From Persicirhabdus sediminis (GTDB taxonomy: Bacteria > Verrucomicrobiota > Verrucomicrobiia > Verrucomicrobiales > Akkermansiaceae), in the NCBI RefSeq assembly GCF_016595495.1, contig NZ_JAENIM010000021.1, positions 62,001-126,000 on the forward strand: DNA of 64,000 nt. The letters are read 5' to 3'. Positions 1 to 60,209 of this stretch are shown here, in pieces. The position numbers and the translations under genes are program-made. The notes under the pieces are model-generated. The model saw only the letters and a list, made by a program, of their open reading frames with translations, searched no databases and was not told the origin of the DNA. Position 1 is the stretch's first letter, and every line of letters starts with the position of its first letter.

Positions 1-3000
1 TCAACCTGTAGCATGCAGCTAGAACCAGCTGGAGCGCTACCGCCAGTGTAGCTCAGCACCGAGGAGCCAGCCACCGCGGTGATCGTGCCTCCTATGCAAG
101 TTGTGCTAGCCGCAGGCACCGCTGCAATTTCTACGCCCGCAGGCAGATTCAAAGTAAAGTCTAGCGAACTAGCTGCTACTGAGCTTAATGAATTATCAAT
201 TGATAGAGTCAATGTACTATTTTGACTGACTGATACTGATGTAGGACTATAGGCCATACTGAAGCCCGGAGCTGGATTCACCCGCAGTGAATCCGAAGAA
301 GTGCCACTATTCCCCAGGCTTGAAGTAAGGTCTCCAGAAGTATTAGAAAAAACACCAGCTACCTCAGCAACGACATCCACTGAGACGGTACCACTAGCTC
401 CAGCGCTCACGCTTCCCCCCGTATAACTAATCGTCCCAGTGCCAGCTACGGCGTTCAACGTCCCGCCCGTCAAGGTGGTCGATGCGTTAGGAGTTGCGGC
501 AATGACCATTCCAGCTGGCAAATTATTAGTGAAATCTAGCGCTGAAGCATCAGCCGTGCTGCCAGAGTTATCTACAGCAAAGGTCAAGGTGACGACTTCG
601 CCGATAATCACAGGGTCAGATGAAAAACTTTGGTCAAATCCAGGCGTAGGATTGATGTGCAAATTTGCGCTAGCCGTTCCGCTATTACCTGAGCTGGATG
701 TCAAATCACCCGTGGTATTCACAAAACTGCCCGCAGTTGAGGCAACGACATCTAGCTGGATTTGCCCACTGGCTCCAGCAGCTAGCGAGCCACCTGAGAA
801 ACTCCAATTATTGGCGCCAGCTAGCGCGGTCAAGGTGCCACCAGTTAGCGTCGTACTCGCATTCGCCGAGCTAGCTATTTGCATGCCTGCTGGCAGATAG
901 TTGGTAATAGCAATCGACGAAGCTGCTAGTGAGCTAGCTGAATTATCCACTGTCAGGGTTAGAGTAACCGGCTGTCCAACCACATGTGGGTCAGGTGACA
1001 GAGTCATACTTACTGTTGGAGCAGGTTCAATAGACAAACTCGCTGATGTCGACTCAGCCACAGTTAGCCCATTGGCTCTCAGGTCGCTACTGATAAATGC
1101 GTAATCACCTGCTGCAACTTCACTGGGAACTACGATAGAGACATCTATCTGGCAACTTTCGCCTCCAGCTAGAGAACCTCCCGTCATGGTGATAAAGTTG
1201 GTTCCAGCTAGCACTGAGCCACTGCCACAAATGTCATTTTCAGGCAGACCAACAGCCACGGTTCCAGCAATACCAGCGCTCAGATTTTCAGAAAAGGCGA
1301 TGCCATTCACTGATTGCACGGCGTCGTTGTTAGTTATGGTATAGCGAAGTGTCGCCGTGCCACCTACTACCGATGGGGCCAGAAATGATTTTTCAAAGCT
1401 AACATTTTGCACTGATAAAGTATCAGAGGCCGACGAGCCATATACAGCAAGGCCATCCAGCTCACCAGTTAGTTCACTGGTTGAACTAATGTATTCCCCA
1501 GCTGGGGCATCTACAGGAACCTGCAAATTGACACTGAAGGTAACGCTGCCGCCCGCGGCTATGGAGCCAGCAGTTAAAGTAAGCACATCAGCTCCGCTGA
1601 GTTGTGAACCATTGCCGGCAATATCATCAACAGGCAAGCCAACAGCTTCTAGGTCTGAGAGCGCAGCTCCTAGATCGTCAGTGAATGAGATATTAGTAAC
1701 CGCCTCAGTTTCACTGAGGTTTATTAATGTGTACTCTAATGTCACCATTCCTCCCGCGGCTACAGGATCGTTAGTGAATGATTTGCTCAGCTGGATCCAC
1801 TCGGAATTTAGTTCTAATCGACTGGCTGAACTTGGCACAATGATAGAGCTTCCATCTATAGTCGCAGTGAGGTTACTTGTTGAGCTGTTATAGCTGCCAT
1901 CACTAGCGGATTGAGGAATCAAAACCTCAAGGTCAAAGCTGCAACTCGTGCCAGCGGGCACGGACCCGCCAACCACAATAATGAAGCTTGGTCCATTAAC
2001 TGTCGACCCTGCGCCGCACGGTTCGGGAGGAAGAGATGTCGCCGCCAAACCGCTAATTACTGACGACAAACTATGAGTATAAACAATGTTAGTGGCGTCT
2101 TCAGTCCCTTGCGTATTGTCGATGGTATAACGTAGCGTGGCCGTTTCTCCAGGAATGAATGGTCCTCCAACAAATTCGTGGCTGAAGGTCAGCACCTCTA
2201 GCTTAAGCTCAGCGCTAGCAGCATCCGAAGTCACAGTTAGGCCAGCCACCTCTGCTGAGGGAGCCGATGTCGTTGAAGTATAGCTTCCGCCCGTAGCCGC
2301 AGCTGGAATGTTTAATTCGACAGAGAAAGTACATTCTTCACCTGGCTCAAGCGAACCTCCTGTAAAAGTTAGCGCTGTAGTTCCTGAAATCCTAGACTCA
2401 TTGCCACAAATATCATCAACAGGTAGTCCACTAGCAGATAAGCCAGCTATCACTGAGTTAAGATCGTCAGTAAATGAGATCCCTGTAGCTCCACTCGGAG
2501 CATCTACATCAAGGCGCAATGTATACTGTAAGGTGACTGTCCCTCCCGGCAAAGCACTTGATAGAAACTCTTTTCTCAATGTCACTCCCGGAACAACGGT
2601 CAAACTCGTTGACGCCGCTGCCCCAGTGTAAACGTCTCCTGAGCCAGTGCCACTCACCGCTGAAGAGCTGATTTCATACGTGCCGCCTTTTACATTTTGT
2701 GGCAATTGAAAACCAAAACTAAATGTGCAAGTTTCCCCAGCTGCTAGTGAGGCTCCGCTTACAATCAAAAGGTCATGGCCACCAACTTGTGAAACATTGG
2801 AATTGGATCCAGCGCCGCAAAAGCCAGCTAAAGGAAGCGAGCTGGGAGTGACACCAGATATAAACTCAGATAGATTCAAGGAAAACGAAATATCAGTCAG
2901 GGCAGCACCTCCATTAGGGTTTGTTAGCGAACATTCTAATGTCGTGCTCCCGCCAGATTCAATAGGGTCAGTAAGAAAATTAATTGATAGAATAGGAGCC

Positions 3001-4307
3001 CACTGCACAAATAGAGTATCGCTAGCTGCATTGCCAGCTACGCTATCCGAGCTAACAAGACTACTTGTACTGGCATAACTACCAGCCGTAGCCTCAGCAG
3101 GAACCAGCAAAGTAACAACAAAAGTCTCTGAAGCGCCAGGAGCTAGGCTGCCAGAACTCAGAGTGATTAGATCGCTCCCACTCAGCTGAGATCCATCACC
3201 ACAAACACCCGTAACAGGAAGACCAGTAGCTACCAAGCCTGTGAGCACCGCATCTAGGTCATCCGTAAAGGTGATATTATCAACTGTCTCCGAGCGGCTA
3301 TAGTTAGTGATTGTGTATTCCAGCTCAACAGTGCTTCCTGGAACTACTGGATCGTTAAGAAACTTCTTTTCGATCAGAAGATCTACTGGCTGTGTCAGTA
3401 TAGAAGTCGTAGCATAGGAAGCCGCTGACTGAATAAAAGCATCACAAAATAGATCATTTACGCCACGACCGTCAGCTACGATATCTATACTAAGGGTCAG
3501 CGTCTCTCCCGGTAGAAGTGCATTAATAATAGTATTTCCATTATGGCTATAACCATTAAAACTAAAGTCTATATGGTCTCCCCCAGCTTCAGCAGTAATA
3601 GCAGGTGTTTGTATGAACTGCTCATAAAGGGGATTCGATGCAGTACCAGCAGGAAAGTCATGCTCAATATTCGTAGGCTCAGCGACAACGAAACCAGCTG
3701 GCAGCTGTGTACTAAATGACAGGTTACTAATATCCCCCCCTCCAACAGGGTTACTAACCACATATTGAAGCGTCGTCCGCCCCCCTTTGAACACCGAGTC
3801 TGGCGAAAAAGCCATGCTGATGAGCGCTCGATTGACATCAACAACAAGATCATCTGTAGCGGTTCCTGAGTTACCAGCTGATGAAGTTAGATCGCCAGAT
3901 GTGATCGTATGAGTCCCTACCACCGAGCTAGTGACAAACACAGTCACATCAGCGGAGGAACTTGCGCCCATTCTTCCTCCCGTCACACTGATGGTATTTC
4001 CACCGCTAGCAGCTACTACGATGGCATCCGCTAAAGTCGTGCTCGCTACTGCTGGGCTGGCAATGCTAACATCAGCAGGCAGATTAATGGAGAAAGCGAC
4101 ATCAGTAACTGGAGTCCCATTCGTATTGTCAATGGTGTAGACTAACTTTGTTGCCCCTCCTGGACCAATCGTATTTGGCTGTAGAATTAAGCTAGGACTA
4201 ACATCCGCCTGAACAGCTAATCCTAGCAGGCAGAATATCCATAAGCTTATCAGAGTGGTCAGCCAGCGAGACTGTGACAAGTGGCTAGAAACGGGACGGT
4301 TTTTCAT
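1..4307 (-). CDS. Giant secreted DUF7933/DUF11-like repeat protein (3' end outside window)
   Basis: An open frame starts at ATG 4307 and runs off the left edge, giving at least 1435 codons. The N-terminus has a basic stretch and a hydrophobic core (LISLWIFCLLGLAVQA), which reads as a signal peptide. The rest is an array of Ser/Thr/Gly-rich beta-sandwich repeats. One type-A repeat lies near the N-terminus, six type-B repeats follow, and at least three type-A repeats lie at the left edge. Type B carries a C-G-x-G-S motif and a GGSLAAG-like strand; type A carries ASTTLTGGTL- and TSSxGNSGT-like strands. This resembles the DUF7933/DUF11 'conserved repeat' domains of bacterial surface proteins. The C-terminal anchor or sorting signal is not visible. 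It lies downstream of the PEP-CTERM gene but behind a hairpin, so it may have its own promoter. Frame and repeats are clear; the surface or adhesin role is inferred. Confidence 0.85.
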   Translation of the reverse strand, partial: MKNRPVSSHLSQSRWLTTLISLWIFCLLGLAVQADVSPSLILQPNTIGPGGATKLVYTIDNTNGTPVTDVAFSINLPADVSIASPAVASTTLADAIVVAASGGNTISVTGGRMGASSSADVTVFVTSSVVGTHTITSGDLTSSAGNSGTATDDLVVDVNRALISMAFSPDSVFKGGRTTLQYVVSNPVGGGDISNLSFSTQLPAGFVVAEPTNIEHDFPAGTASNPLYEQFIQTPAITAEAGGDHIDFSFNGYSHNGNTIINALLPGETLTLSIDIVADGRGVNDLFCDAFIQSAASYATTSILTQPVDLLIEKKFLNDPVVPGSTVELEYTITNYSRSETVDNITFTDDLDAVLTGLVATGLPVTGVCGDGSQLSGSDLITLSSGSLAPGASETFVVTLLVPAEATAGSYASTSSLVSSDSVAGNAASDTLFVQWAPILSINFLTDPIESGGSTTLECSLTNPNGGAALTDISFSLNLSEFISGVTPSSLPLAGFCGAGSNSNVSQVGGHDLLIVSGASLAAGETCTFSFGFQLPQNVKGGTYEISSSAVSGTGSGDVYTGAAASTSLTVVPGVTLRKEFLSSALPGGTVTLQYTLRLDVDAPSGATGISFTDDLNSVIAGLSASGLPVDDICGNESRISGTTALTFTGGSLEPGEECTFSVELNIPAAATGGSYTSTTSAPSAEVAGLTVTSDAASAELKLEVLTFSHEFVGGPFIPGETATLRYTIDNTQGTEDATNIVYTHSLSSVISGLAATSLPPEPCGAGSTVNGPSFIIVVGGSVPAGTSCSFDLEVLIPQSASDGSYNSSTSNLTATIDGSSIIVPSSASRLELNSEWIQLSKSFTNDPVAAGGMVTLEYTLINLSETEAVTNISFTDDLGAALSDLEAVGLPVDDIAGNGSQLSGADVLTLTAGSIAAGGSVTFSVNLQVPVDAPAGEYISSTSELTGELDGLAVYGSSASDTLSVQNVSFEKSFLAPSVVGGTATLRYTITNNDAVQSVNGIAFSENLSAGIAGTVAVGLPENDICGSGSVLAGTNFITMTGGSLAGGESCQIDVSIVVPSEVAAGDYAFISSDLRANGLTVAESTSASLSIEPAPTVSMTLSPDPHVVGQPVTLTLTVDNSASSLAASSIAITNYLPAGMQIASSANASTTLTGGTLTALAGANNWSFSGGSLAAGASGQIQLDVVASTAGSFVNTTGDLTSSSGNSGTASANLHINPTPGFDQSFSSDPVIIGEVVTLTFAVDNSGSTADASALDFTNNLPAGMVIAATPNASTTLTGGTLNAVAGTGTISYTGGSVSAGASGTVSVDVVAEVAGVFSNTSGDLTSSLGNSGTSSDSLRVNPAPGFSMAYSPTSVSVSQNSTLTLSIDNSLSSVAASSLDFTLNLPAGVEIAAVPAASTTCIGGTITAVAGSSVLSYTGGSAPAGSSCMLQV
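87..3203 (-). repeat. Degenerate coding repeats of 375-411 bp
   Basis: Equivalent codons of the C-G-x-G-S motif fall at about 1227, 1617, 2016, 2406, 2817 and 3201. The spacings are 390, 399, 390, 411 and 384 bp, all multiples of three. A second, related repeat type has equivalent positions at about 87, 462 and 837, exactly 375 bp (125 codons) apart. The copies are diverged in DNA but keep the protein pattern. One type-B copy (near 1617) has Ala in place of the Cys. Confidence 0.75.
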
Positions 4308-4437
4308 CAGGTATAGGGATAGGTTGAAACGTGAAAAAAAGAGCCTCAGCAAGGTCATCGACCTCGACATAAAACATCCAGCCTCGGCAGCTCGCTGGAC
4401 ATGATTTCTCAACCTCAGATGAGAAAAGATAAGAGAC

Positions 4438-54738: not shown

Positions 54739-55959
54739 CTAGATGCGGTCGATGAACCAATAAAGACCAATGAGGGCGATGCTGGCTGATAGGCCGTCGC
54801 GCAGGTAGTGGAACCAATCGAATTTTCTGAACCAGCCGATGGCTAACAATACGGCAAAGATGATGAATACTTGAGCCAATTCAACACCGATGTTTGCGGC
54901 TAACAAAGGCATAATGATATTACCACCAGAGCCGAGCTTCTCGCCGAGAGCACCAGCAAAGCCGGCACCGTGAATGAGCCCGAAGGTGAAGATCACGCCG
55001 AGGCGGAATTTTGATAACTTCTTCAGCCAGAAATTCTCAACGGCCACAAAGGCAATGCTCAGGGCAATCAATGGTTCGATGATAGATCCAGGTAGGTTGA
55101 TGAAACCGAGCACTGATAGAGCTAGGGTGACGGAATGAGCTAGGGTAAACATCAAGCTCTGAGTGAGCAGCGGGCGCCAAGTGAGCGAGAGCAGCACCAT
55201 GGCGAGGATGAACAGAACGTGGTCAAGCCCCTCTGGCAGGACGTGCTCAAAACCTAAAATCACAAAGCTAACAAACGAGCTGGTTTTGCTAGGCACAATT
55301 GACTCTACCACTTCAGTCTCTTCAGCTGGCTGGCCATCTTCACCTTTTGCCGCAGTAGCGGGCTTGCTCACAACCCGCATCAGCTCTAACGACCCACCGG
55401 GTTTGATATATTCGTAGGCTTCGATTTCACCGTGAATATCGTGCATGGCAACGAGGTATTTGGGATGTTTGCCCTCGTTGATTTTCATCACTAAAGTTCC
55501 CGTTGGCAGTTCCCCATCTACTAAAATTCTGAAGTAGGCGTATCCACCTAGCAACTCGGGGAAATTAGGCGGATCAAAATCAAAATCTGGGTAGCTGGCG
55601 GTCCAATCTAACTTGGTCACTTTATCTCCCTGATGAACTTGCCATTCGATGCATTCACGCAGGTATTTCTCAGCCCCTTCGCGCAGCTCGGCCCATTTTT
55701 CTGGGCTTTGTTCGGCTAACCATTCGCGTGTTGGTTGTGGTGCGTCGACATCGAGTCGCTGAGCTTCGGTGGCATAACCAACATCATAGAGCACCTCAGC
55801 GCGCCAGCTTTTGCCGTCGTGGGTAAAGTCGACGTAGATTTGCTCAACAAGATGTGCGCTCAGGCCAAGAAGGGTGAGCCACCAAATGAAAAAAATGCGC
55901 AATGAGAAATTCACGTGCGCGTTATACGACAGCTTCGCTGATAGACAAGCTGAAAGCAT
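54739..55959 (-). CDS. HupE/UreJ-2 family membrane protein
   Basis: A 406-residue protein. An exported N-terminal domain of about 230 residues is beta-rich. It is followed by a C-terminal polytopic HupE/UreJ domain (LGFEHVLPEGLDHVLFILAM, MFTLAHSVTLAL, GLIHGAGFAGAL). His residues in GxxHVL/DHVLF and LAHS are typical of nickel or other metal transport. No hydrogenase or urease genes lie nearby, so the metal is unknown. The start could be ATG 55959 or GTG 55914. Confidence 0.83.
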   Translation of the reverse strand: MLSACLSAKLSYNAHVNFSLRIFFIWWLTLLGLSAHLVEQIYVDFTHDGKSWRAEVLYDVGYATEAQRLDVDAPQPTREWLAEQSPEKWAELREGAEKYLRECIEWQVHQGDKVTKLDWTASYPDFDFDPPNFPELLGGYAYFRILVDGELPTGTLVMKINEGKHPKYLVAMHDIHGEIEAYEYIKPGGSLELMRVVSKPATAAKGEDGQPAEETEVVESIVPSKTSSFVSFVILGFEHVLPEGLDHVLFILAMVLLSLTWRPLLTQSLMFTLAHSVTLALSVLGFINLPGSIIEPLIALSIAFVAVENFWLKKLSKFRLGVIFTFGLIHGAGFAGALGEKLGSGGNIIMPLLAANIGVELAQVFIIFAVLLAIGWFRKFDWFHYLRDGLSASIALIGLYWFIDRI

Positions 55960-55991: not shown

Positions 55992-57323
55992 CTATCTAAA
56001 CTGGGTGCTAAGCTTTTGCGGTTCGTAAAATTTCACAACTAATCCGCTGCGCCTGTACGCTTGGGCAATCTCTTTTTCCAGCTGGTCGAAACTACGCCCC
56101 AACAAGAGCTCGTCGATAGCAGTTTGGCCAGTTTTCCCCTCGTGCAATCCTTTGAGGAATGAGTTTAGAGATTCGCGTGTGCCGCCTCTATCAAGGTGGA
56201 TGAAGTAGTTGGTTAATAACAATCCAAAGGCGTAGTTAGCTCTAGCATTTTGGCCTGAGAACTGGCCGTAGGACATGGTCATGAACCACTCTAAGTTAGG
56301 CATGTGTACTTCCTTCACTAGATGTTGGTCATACTGTGAGCCCACATTGGCGTGCCGGCCACCTAAGGTAATGTAGCGCATGAGGTTTTTCTGATGCGAT
56401 GTATTGAGGTGGAATTTGCCGCTCTCGTAGCGGGTGCCAGCCACGTACTCGGCGATGCCTTCGGAAAACCAGCCACGCGAACCTTGCGCAAAATAAACTG
56501 GCTCAGTGAGCTGGTGGGTGAGCTCGTGCATGAGGATGTAGTTCGTTTTTTCGTGGTCGACGCGATAGCTGCCACCTAACTTTCTCACCCCAAGGTTATG
56601 GATAGGCACAACAACGTGGTCTTTTTCTGGATCATAAAATCCACCAACACCTGAGCGGCCACCTAGCTGCATGAATGAATGGTTAGACTCAACTAACAAC
56701 ACCTTGAAATAGCCGCCGCGCGTGTGAGCCTTGAGCATGCCTAGCGGCATTTTATTAACGTAGTCGTATGTGGCTTCGAAGATTCTAGCCAGCTTTGACA
56801 TGGCTGAGCTACCGAGCTTGGCGTCGCACTGGAATTCAAAGTGTGGGCTGCGGTAGACGTAGAAGTCGTTTTTACTATCTTCCTTGATCACTTGGATCGT
56901 TTGCCGCGGGCTCGCGTATGCTTCTGTGGGCCACGGCGAGCTGAAATCTGCGCGGTAGTATCGGTGATCGTTAGATACTTTCTTCGACATGCCAGCTAGC
57001 GCATCTGGTGAGGGCTGATTTTTCGCTGCAGGAGCCGTGGTTTTTTTCTGGCTAGAACTGCTTGAGGCGGTGGGTTTACTGCTCCCCATGCCCATGACGT
57101 ATGCCTGGTCGCCGAGTGATAGTCGGCTAAACTCGACGGCAAAAAGTTTGCCGTCACTGGTGCGTTTGAGAACCACTTTATTTCCCTGCTGGCGCACGTA
57201 TTCGGCTTCCATAGAGGTGCCGGCTTTGACGTCACGCCACTCACGCGCACTAGCCGAGCAGGCAAAAGCGGCGATCAGCAAGCAGACTTGGGTGATTCGA
57301 TTAAGTGTTTTTTTACTTCGCAC
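55992..57323 (-). CDS. SHD1-domain zinc metallopeptidase-like protein (copy 1)
   Basis: A 443-residue exported protein (signal CLLIAAFACSASA, GTG start at 57323). Residues about 28-80 form an SHD1-like domain (WRDVKAGTSMEAEYV...VEFSRLSLGDQAYV), a short beta fold found in many Planctomycetes and Verrucomicrobia secreted proteins. A Ser/Pro-rich linker leads to a peptidase domain with HELTHQL and a third-ligand GIAEYV, the gluzincin zinc site. It is a diverged tandem duplicate of the gene at 57342 and lies 18 nt after it. The protein substrate is unknown. Confidence 0.82.
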   Translation of the reverse strand: MRSKKTLNRITQVCLLIAAFACSASAREWRDVKAGTSMEAEYVRQQGNKVVLKRTSDGKLFAVEFSRLSLGDQAYVMGMGSSKPTASSSSSQKKTTAPAAKNQPSPDALAGMSKKVSNDHRYYRADFSSPWPTEAYASPRQTIQVIKEDSKNDFYVYRSPHFEFQCDAKLGSSAMSKLARIFEATYDYVNKMPLGMLKAHTRGGYFKVLLVESNHSFMQLGGRSGVGGFYDPEKDHVVVPIHNLGVRKLGGSYRVDHEKTNYILMHELTHQLTEPVYFAQGSRGWFSEGIAEYVAGTRYESGKFHLNTSHQKNLMRYITLGGRHANVGSQYDQHLVKEVHMPNLEWFMTMSYGQFSGQNARANYAFGLLLTNYFIHLDRGGTRESLNSFLKGLHEGKTGQTAIDELLLGRSFDQLEKEIAQAYRRSGLVVKFYEPQKLSTQFR

Positions 57324-57341
57324 ACTATTTATCTGCCTTAG

Positions 57342-58577
57342 CTAGCGCGCGCCGTCAAAGTGAATCTTCACGCCACGTGACTTCCAGGCCTTGGCAATTT
57401 GCTCCTGGAGCTGCTCGTAGGTGCGTCCCATGAGCAGAGCGTCAATGGCTTCCTGACCTTTTTTGCCATCCTGCAGCGCCTTGAGAAAATGATTTAAGGC
57501 GACGCGCTCGCCATCACCATCCATGTGGAAAAAGTAGTAGGTCAGCAGCAATCCACAGCCGTAGTTGCGGTTGGCGTCGGCGGTGAAGCTCGAGTAGGGC
57601 ATGAGCATGAAATCTTGCACGGCAGCCATGCGGATTTCATCACCCAGCGCACGGCCACCATTTTTATCTCTGCCATAGGCGGTGACGTAGTCTTTCACCG
57701 CGCTGATCTGTTGTTTGGTAGAATAAATGCCCGAGCGGAATGGGGTGACGCCGACATATTCAGCTAGACCCTCGGTAAACCATCCTCGCGCACCTTCGGA
57801 GTAGTATTTTCTATCCGTGAGCTGATGGGCAATTTCATGCGGCAGGGTTTTGTTGGAGTGGTCGCGGTCGCGCATGTAGCGGCTGCCTACTTTTTTCACG
57901 CCTAAGCTGGTAAGTGGCACCATGATCAAATCTCCACGTGACATATAAACACCTGCAGATTCTGGCGGAGCGCCGTTAGAAACGTAGGTGCCGTGATGTT
58001 CAAATAACAAAATCTTGAAATGCTCACCTTCGAGATGTGGTTTGCGCATGCCTAATGGCAGCAATTTGACATACTCATAGGTGGCCTCAAACAAGCGAGC
58101 AAAGCTGCCCACGACGCTCTGGCTGAGCTGCACGTCGCAGATGTATTCGTAATGCGCGCTGCGGTAGACGTATTTTTTCTCTGTGTCATCTTCGGAGACA
58201 ACTTGCACATCTACTTGGGCGGCTACTTTCACCTGTGACGGCCAGTCGGCGGTGTAGCTGGTAAACTTCGTGGCGTCAGCTTCGCGGCTACGCCGGCTAG
58301 AAGACGTGTCGACATCGCTGTCGCTGCCGGGGTCTAGCTCGTTTTCTGTTTTATCCGCCATGCGCTGGCTGACGTAGCTACGATCAGCCTCGCTGAGTTT
58401 TGCCAATGATAGGCTGAATGATTTGCCATCGCTCTGCCGCTGGATCTTGACCTGCTCACCATCGCTAGAAACATACTCTGCCTCAACTTTGCGCCCGGTC
58501 TCGGCGTCCGTCCATTCACGCCCGCTGGCTGGCAGCAAGATGGCAAGGCTGCTCAAAATCATTATCAATGGCTTCAT
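57342..58577 (-). CDS. SHD1-domain zinc metallopeptidase-like protein (copy 2)
   Basis: A 411-residue exported protein from ATG 58577 (MKPLIMILSSLAILLPAS). It has the same layout as copy 1: SHD1 domain (WTDAETGRKVEAEYV...LAKLSEADRSYV), Ser/Arg/Asp linker, then HEIAHQLTDR and GLAEYV, with a C-terminal ALLMGRTYEQLQEQIAKAW that matches the LLLGRSFDQLEKEIAQAY of copy 1. Both zinc motifs are intact, so both copies may be active. An upstream in-frame start at 58613 would add 12 residues before the signal peptide. Confidence 0.82.
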   Translation of the reverse strand: MKPLIMILSSLAILLPASGREWTDAETGRKVEAEYVSSDGEQVKIQRQSDGKSFSLSLAKLSEADRSYVSQRMADKTENELDPGSDSDVDTSSSRRSREADATKFTSYTADWPSQVKVAAQVDVQVVSEDDTEKKYVYRSAHYEYICDVQLSQSVVGSFARLFEATYEYVKLLPLGMRKPHLEGEHFKILLFEHHGTYVSNGAPPESAGVYMSRGDLIMVPLTSLGVKKVGSRYMRDRDHSNKTLPHEIAHQLTDRKYYSEGARGWFTEGLAEYVGVTPFRSGIYSTKQQISAVKDYVTAYGRDKNGGRALGDEIRMAAVQDFMLMPYSSFTADANRNYGCGLLLTYYFFHMDGDGERVALNHFLKALQDGKKGQEAIDALLMGRTYEQLQEQIAKAWKSRGVKIHFDGAR

Positions 58578-59968: not shown

Positions 59969-59976
59969 TTTTCCAG

Positions 59977-60132
59977 CCAGCCTTTCCAGCCAGCCTTTCC
60001 AGCCAGCCTTTCCAGCCAGCCTTTCCAGCCAGCCTTTCCAGCCAGCCTTTCCAGCCAGCCTTTCCAGCCAGCCTTTCCAGCCAGCCTTTCCAGCCAGCCT
60101 TTCCAGCCAGCCTTTCCAGCCAGCCTTTCCAG
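59977..60132. repeat. 12 perfect copies of a 13-bp tandem repeat
   Basis: The unit CCAGCCTTTCCAG is repeated exactly 12 times with no mismatches, between a partial copy (TTTTCCAG) and CCAGCTAG. Because 13 is not a multiple of three, all frames stay open for 39 bp periods; the resulting Phe/Pro/Ser-rich peptide is probably not a gene. There are no spacers, so it is not a CRISPR. Confidence 0.95.
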
Positions 60133-60209
60133 CCAGCTAGCCGCTGCGTCCCTATGAGGTCATGACCATTTTCCCATCAGCCATTGGCTGATAAATCCAC
60201 CCGCAGAAC

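Follow-up and report, generated by a model that had tools for sequence, protein, structure and literature searches.

Gene content of the peptidase locus

The window, by which we mean the whole 64-kb stretch of DNA analyzed, contains two intact, neighboring ORFs on the minus strand, here called PepB and PepA, which are separated by 18 bp and followed head to tail on the same strand, after a gap of 32 bp, by a HupE/UreJ-2 gene. The genes and their main features are as follows.

57342..58577, minus strand: PepB, 411 amino acids, with signal peptide, SHD1 domain and predicted gluzincin-type zinc peptidase domain; the slower-evolving copy
58359..58526, minus strand: SHD1 domain of PepB, residues 18-73 (Pfam PF03983, 24.3 bits; fold match to 2hbp)
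57825..57839, minus strand: zinc motif HEIAH at residues 247-251 of PepB (H247, E248 and H251 invariant in the alignment)
57771..57773, minus strand: Glu269 within WFTEG of PepB, proposed as the third ligand of the zinc (alignments)
55992..57323, minus strand: PepA, 443 amino acids, the second copy, with the architecture of PepB; fast-evolving
57093..57254, minus strand: SHD1 domain of PepA, residues 24-77 (PF03983, 22.4 bits, slightly below the cut-off)
56514..56528, minus strand: zinc motif HELTH at residues 266-270 of PepA (read from the sequence and its alignment to PepB)
56460..56462, minus strand: Glu288 within WFSEG of PepA, proposed as the third ligand of the zinc (sequence, alignment with PepB, homologs)
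54739..55959, minus strand: HupE/UreJ-2 protein with an N-terminal Ang-1-like domain (anglerase-like), 32 bp downstream of PepA (PF13795; Ang-1 fold match)
55852..55854, minus strand: His after the signal peptide of the HupE/UreJ-2 protein (invariant in 19/19; cleavage site judged by eye)

PepB is taken to start at the ATG at 58577, the mechanical ORF beginning at TTG 58613. A sequence-only reading of this DNA had described two diverged copies, each with a secretion signal, and both points were borne out: PepA and PepB share 39% identity across 419 aligned columns (E = 2e-97), so that their likeness is not due to chance, and the N terminus of each reads as a Sec signal peptide when judged by eye. 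PepB, PepA and the anglerase-like HupE/UreJ-2 gene probably form one transcript; a search of the minus strand upstream of PepB gave no sigma-70-like promoter. A perfect 13-bp tandem repeat (59970-60137; 12.9 copies of the unit TTTCCAGCCAGCC) lies in the interval that separates the peptidase pair from a YebC/TACO1-like gene. Elsewhere in the window, positions 3-4412 of the minus strand, open at the window end, encode a repetitive surface-type protein of more than 1,470 amino acids, with short antisense frames on the plus strand.

N-terminal SHD1 domain

The N-terminal domain of both proteins had been described as SHD1-like. The Pfam model PF03983 scores PepB above its cut-off of 23.7 bits and PepA slightly below it, a profile built from 21 relatives matches the solved SHD1 domain of SLA1 (PDB model 2hbp) with an E-value of 2.2e-4, and Foldseek places the PepB model on 2hbp at 1.5 Å over 57 columns. 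Sequence score and SH3-like fold together confirm SHD1 membership for PepB and PepA, and the domain is matched at E ≤ 0.01 in 32 of 54 relatives. In yeast, the SHD1 domain of Sla1 binds a short peptide motif; in PepA and PepB, the module would most likely bind a peptide or a partner in the envelope.

Not all family members depend on SHD1: it is replaced by another N-terminal region in L128, L138 (judged by a longer frame and the query range in the alignment) and L150, and the peptidase of L154 is too short to hold it. In two of these Rubritalea-type relatives (L128, 1889-3541; L150, 5317-6912), a region of ~200 residues stands in place of SHD1, and HupE then follows on the same strand. The source genome carries a second tandem SHD1 pair on contig C42 (L035, 1999-4926, minus strand), whose near-identical products of 443 and 455 amino acids resemble, by eye, an α/β hydrolase in their remainder; Pfam gave SHD1 only.

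Passages of PMC5906684 describe secreted bacterial proteins with zincin-like peptidases that carry SH3-fold domains, SHD1 being among the companions. Like these fusions, PepA and PepB combine a secreted SH3-like module with a zincin-like peptidase, but the domains fused to zincins in those passages are chromo-like and classical SH3, and SHD1 is named there solely as a companion domain.

Predicted fold and zinc site

A metal-free AlphaFold2 model of PepB, built from 54 sequences, reached a mean pLDDT of 89.1. With VIA-align, residues ~133-404 of the model matched the M9 collagenases best (Z = 16.2, rmsd = 3.0 Å, 221 aligned), followed by M30 lugdulysin (Z = 12.1) and then M1 aminopeptidases (Z of ~10-11). 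This ranking places the HExxH motif within a predicted gluzincin peptidase fold, so that the concern attached to the sequence-only reading, an HExxH lying outside any peptidase fold, does not apply to the PepB model. The motif itself is intact in both copies, as had been proposed (HELTH in PepA, HEIAH in PepB), and with a downstream Glu it gives the arrangement of gluzincins (clan MA). Residues H247, E248, H251 and E269 (PepB numbering) are invariant over the 54 alignment rows, and HExxH is intact in 40 of 43 homologs.

The third zinc ligand had been assigned to the Glu of G[IL]AEYV, which is probably four residues too late; most likely, on the evidence of alignments, it is the Glu of WF[ST]EG. 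In an HMM alignment to the M1 peptidase 6a8z of Deinococcus, whose match is weak (E = 0.15), the residue of 6a8z opposite the EG Glu is Glu and the one opposite the AEY Glu is Thr. Among homologs with an intact HExxH, the EG Glu is kept in 40/40 and the AEY Glu in 38/40, being missing in two.

The M9 collagenases (Vibrio VhaC, Clostridium ColG/ColH) have the same HExxH gluzincin layout and are the best fold match to PepB, but identity is ~15%, SHD1 replaces the collagenase N-terminal part, and the likeness does not imply collagen cleavage. M30 lugdulysin and the M1 aminopeptidases have the gluzincin core in common with PepB, with HExxH...W.sEG.A aligned to 6a8z, but their fold match is weaker than that of M9, and PepB lacks the M1 N-terminal domain. 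A plain sequence search gave no solved relative at a firm E-value, and no peptidase family in Pfam or NCBIfam scored above its cut-off. The M9 collagenase family (PF01752) gave 13 bits for PepA against a cut-off of 26, and the DUF1570 family (PF07607), to which the sequence-only reading had looked, gave 16.3 bits for PepB against 22; each was matched at E ≤ 0.01 in 5 of 54 relatives, and the proteins fall outside both. Flagellinolysin (NF033876) was set aside as well, its 22.3 and 21.2 bits against the NCBIfam cut-off of 205 reflecting the shared zinc core alone. With every named peptidase family below its sequence cut-off, PepA and PepB represent a branch not described in these libraries.

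Duplication and rapid divergence of PepA

PepA and PepB look like the products of a recent duplication in which one copy is changing fast. A careful tree of 62 rows joins them in one clade (support 98/88), with branches of 1.82 for PepA and 0.55 for PepB; the sister grouping depends on leaving extreme rows out, the 62 rows being a 101-row set minus 39 (extreme branches, inactive copies and near-duplicates) picked after the 101-row tree had been seen. That larger tree, made by a quick method and containing many long branches, sets PepA apart from PepB, and a 43-row tree left their relation unresolved. Of the 20 columns that are invariant in the 52 other rows, 19 are retained in PepA; of the 69 columns conserved at 90%, PepA keeps 55 and PepB 67, the median fraction for the others being 0.971.

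The two genes are not conserved as neighbors in the genomes searched, an outcome that the sequence-only reading had named as one that would refute it: the 195 genomes searched in the family, in which the source genome alone covers the genus, hold no recognizable PepA ortholog elsewhere. Beyond the PepA locus, the closest sequences there share 38-42% of their residues with PepA, no more than PepB does, and PepB ranks as the best match of PepA. When PepA by itself served as the query, a scan of named genomes found nothing.

Single copies are usual among the genomes searched. Close-set copies occur elsewhere (three in G014/L081, two in L082, a convergent arrangement in L103, copies 2.6 kb apart in L130, two in G040 and close-set matches in G116 and G184); tandem copies have arisen separately, sometimes with a dead site, and some close-set copies are old paralogs, such as L103_7114, which groups with L056, L057 and L059 in the 62-row tree. 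The active site has been lost in 3 of 43 homologs (L043_6512, L069_8081 and L074_6618). Of these three genes (L043, 6512-7777; L069, 8081-9688; L074, 6618-8045), two adjoin an intact copy and one adjoins HupE.

An anglerase-like gene downstream

PepA and PepB are peptidases of a known kind, and the less expected part is the repeated placement of such genes beside a metal-capture gene. The membrane domain of the downstream HupE/UreJ-2 protein scores 130.7 bits with PF13795 (cut-off 24.5), and the model of the protein has a pLDDT of 86.6. Its N-terminal part matches PDB model 9gce (Z = 10.7, rmsd = 4.2, 150 aligned), in which a HupE/UreJ-2 protein's Ang-1 domain is seen with copper bound (PMC12537917). 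With cleavage judged by eye, a His directly after the small-x-small site is invariant in 19/19 HupE sequences, and the mature protein is predicted to begin with this His in a β-sandwich Ang domain, as in an anglerase; three His of the membrane part are also invariant (19/19).

Proteins combining Ang-1 and HupE/UreJ-2 were named anglerases in 2025, in a paper whose passages propose metal capture for the permease and report that Ang-1 binds copper and nickel in vitro and that DUF6702, a related N-terminal-His protein, neighbors M1 peptidases (PMC12537917). The downstream gene shares with those anglerases, 9gce included, the PF13795 domain, an Ang-1-like fold and the invariant His after the signal peptide; its product would be an anglerase-like protein that captures copper or nickel. 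The same passages place Ang-1 mainly in Pseudomonadota, make no mention of Verrucomicrobia and name as neighbors DUF4198, indigoidine A-like and PfkB, not peptidases, whereas the present gene belongs to Verrucomicrobiales and stands beside a gluzincin.

Adjacency of peptidase and HupE across genomes

Among 80 loci, kept from 158 relatives found by an alignment search, HupE lies directly beside the peptidase in 18, with 13 convergent and 5 codirectional arrangements; the codirectional loci (L118, L128, L138, L150 and L154), Rubritalea relatives among them, have the gene order of the window. By our own count among the matches listed, read from the places given and with different E-value limits for peptidase and HupE, the two are adjacent in 17 of 30 same-family genomes that have both genes. 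Both are present in G000, 006, 008, 009, 011, 012, 013, 014, 018, 021, 023, 024, 025, 031, 033, 034, 035, 149, 155, 162, 172, 175, 187, 197, 200, 206, 217, 220, 232 and 246, and they adjoin in G000, 006, 008, 009, 012, 014, 018, 021, 024, 025, 034, 149, 162, 172, 197, 200 and 232. The locus and genome counts overlap, many loci being the same contigs. In G043, from another family, HupE adjoins an inactive peptidase copy.

By ORF calling, HupE is the commonest 3' neighbor of the peptidase (16 of 74 usable loci). Peptidases of the HupE set have a median identity of 47.8% and a lowest value of 38.7%, as measured in 15 adjacent loci (the other three of the 18, L081, L109 and L118, have no usable full-length peptidase). 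A predicted oxidoreductase (13/74) and an RlmN-like gene (11/74), both named by eye, also recur at the 3' side within related groups; these were rejected as conserved partners, since the peptidases there are 64-93% identical, against the 47.8% median of the HupE set, and their recurrence is ordinary shared descent. A candidate HExxH gene in L224 proved to be a mechanical frame with no recognizable protein. L060 and the genomes of one genus-level group (g3) have a single peptidase, and many show no HupE among the matches listed, which suggests that the peptidase works without an anglerase there. A limited literature search found no mention of a peptidase-anglerase link. Taken as gene order, the adjacency is suggestive of functional coupling between the peptidase and the anglerase-like gene.

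Proposed function and alternative explanations

We propose, with a probability of roughly 0.65, that PepA and PepB are exported gluzincin endopeptidases that arose by tandem duplication in the lineage of the source genome and are probably cotranscribed with the anglerase-like gene. From sequence and model, we infer that both are secreted and catalytic: a cleaved Sec signal would take them out of the cytoplasm, and the catalytic domain would cut an extracytoplasmic protein by means of a Glu-activated water on a zinc whose ligands would come from HExxH and the WF[ST]EG Glu. After the duplication, PepA would have evolved about three times faster than PepB with its active site kept, and this speaks for a new substrate or setting and against decay.

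That two intact active sites might reflect either different substrates or a two-part system was suggested from the sequence, and only the former part stands: the data support an altered substrate or altered regulation for PepA, which is the faster copy. An obligate pair, acting as a heteromer or as sequential cutters, would accord with the intact sites and with genes 18 bp apart on one strand, but we consider it highly improbable: PepA and PepB are each other's closest kin, their duplication is specific to the source genome's lineage, single copies are the rule, and the 195 family genomes hold no PepA ortholog elsewhere. Nor is the pair supported as a conserved two-part system. PepA could instead be a redundant duplicate heading for loss, its long branch (1.82) and its retention of just 55 of 69 conserved columns being signs of relaxed constraint, as in relatives whose extra copies have lost the active site (3/43); the intact 443-codon frame, the full zinc site and the 19 of 20 invariant columns make such a fate unlikely.

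A wider alternative, which we regard as rather unlikely, is that the peptidase and the anglerase work together as a single module for metal acquisition, in which the peptidase frees copper or nickel from extracytoplasmic proteins or peptides and Ang-1 passes the metal to the HupE/UreJ-2 permease. Direct adjacency in 18/80 loci and, among the matches listed, in 17/30 same-family genomes, its persistence down to peptidases of 38.7% identity and through changes in HupE orientation, and the in vitro metal binding of Ang-1 together with the M1 peptidase neighbors of DUF6702 (in passages of PMC12537917) all favor a module. Yet 62 of the 80 loci have a peptidase without a neighboring HupE; among the matches listed from 239 genomes, the peptidase occurs in at least 150 and HupE in at least 106, at different thresholds; the g3 genomes have the peptidase, many without a HupE match among those listed; convergent genes cannot share one transcript; and outside the order, HupE/UreJ-2 lies beside the peptidase in 0 of the 14 loci read.

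Our preferred reading remains that of exported gluzincins duplicated in one lineage. We further speculate, although we think it rather improbable, that SHD1-gluzincin and anglerase permease constitute a cut-and-capture module of Verrucomicrobiales whose peptidase was doubled here so that a broader set of metal-bearing substrates could be cut. If this were true, a secreted peptidase would free a transition metal from an extracytoplasmic protein and feed it to an anglerase permease. The peptidase stays beside the anglerase gene across the order while other neighbors change and the permease gene flips, which makes it a candidate anglerase partner, and it would represent a gluzincin group new to description, with a predicted collagenase-like fold, that is common in Verrucomicrobiales.
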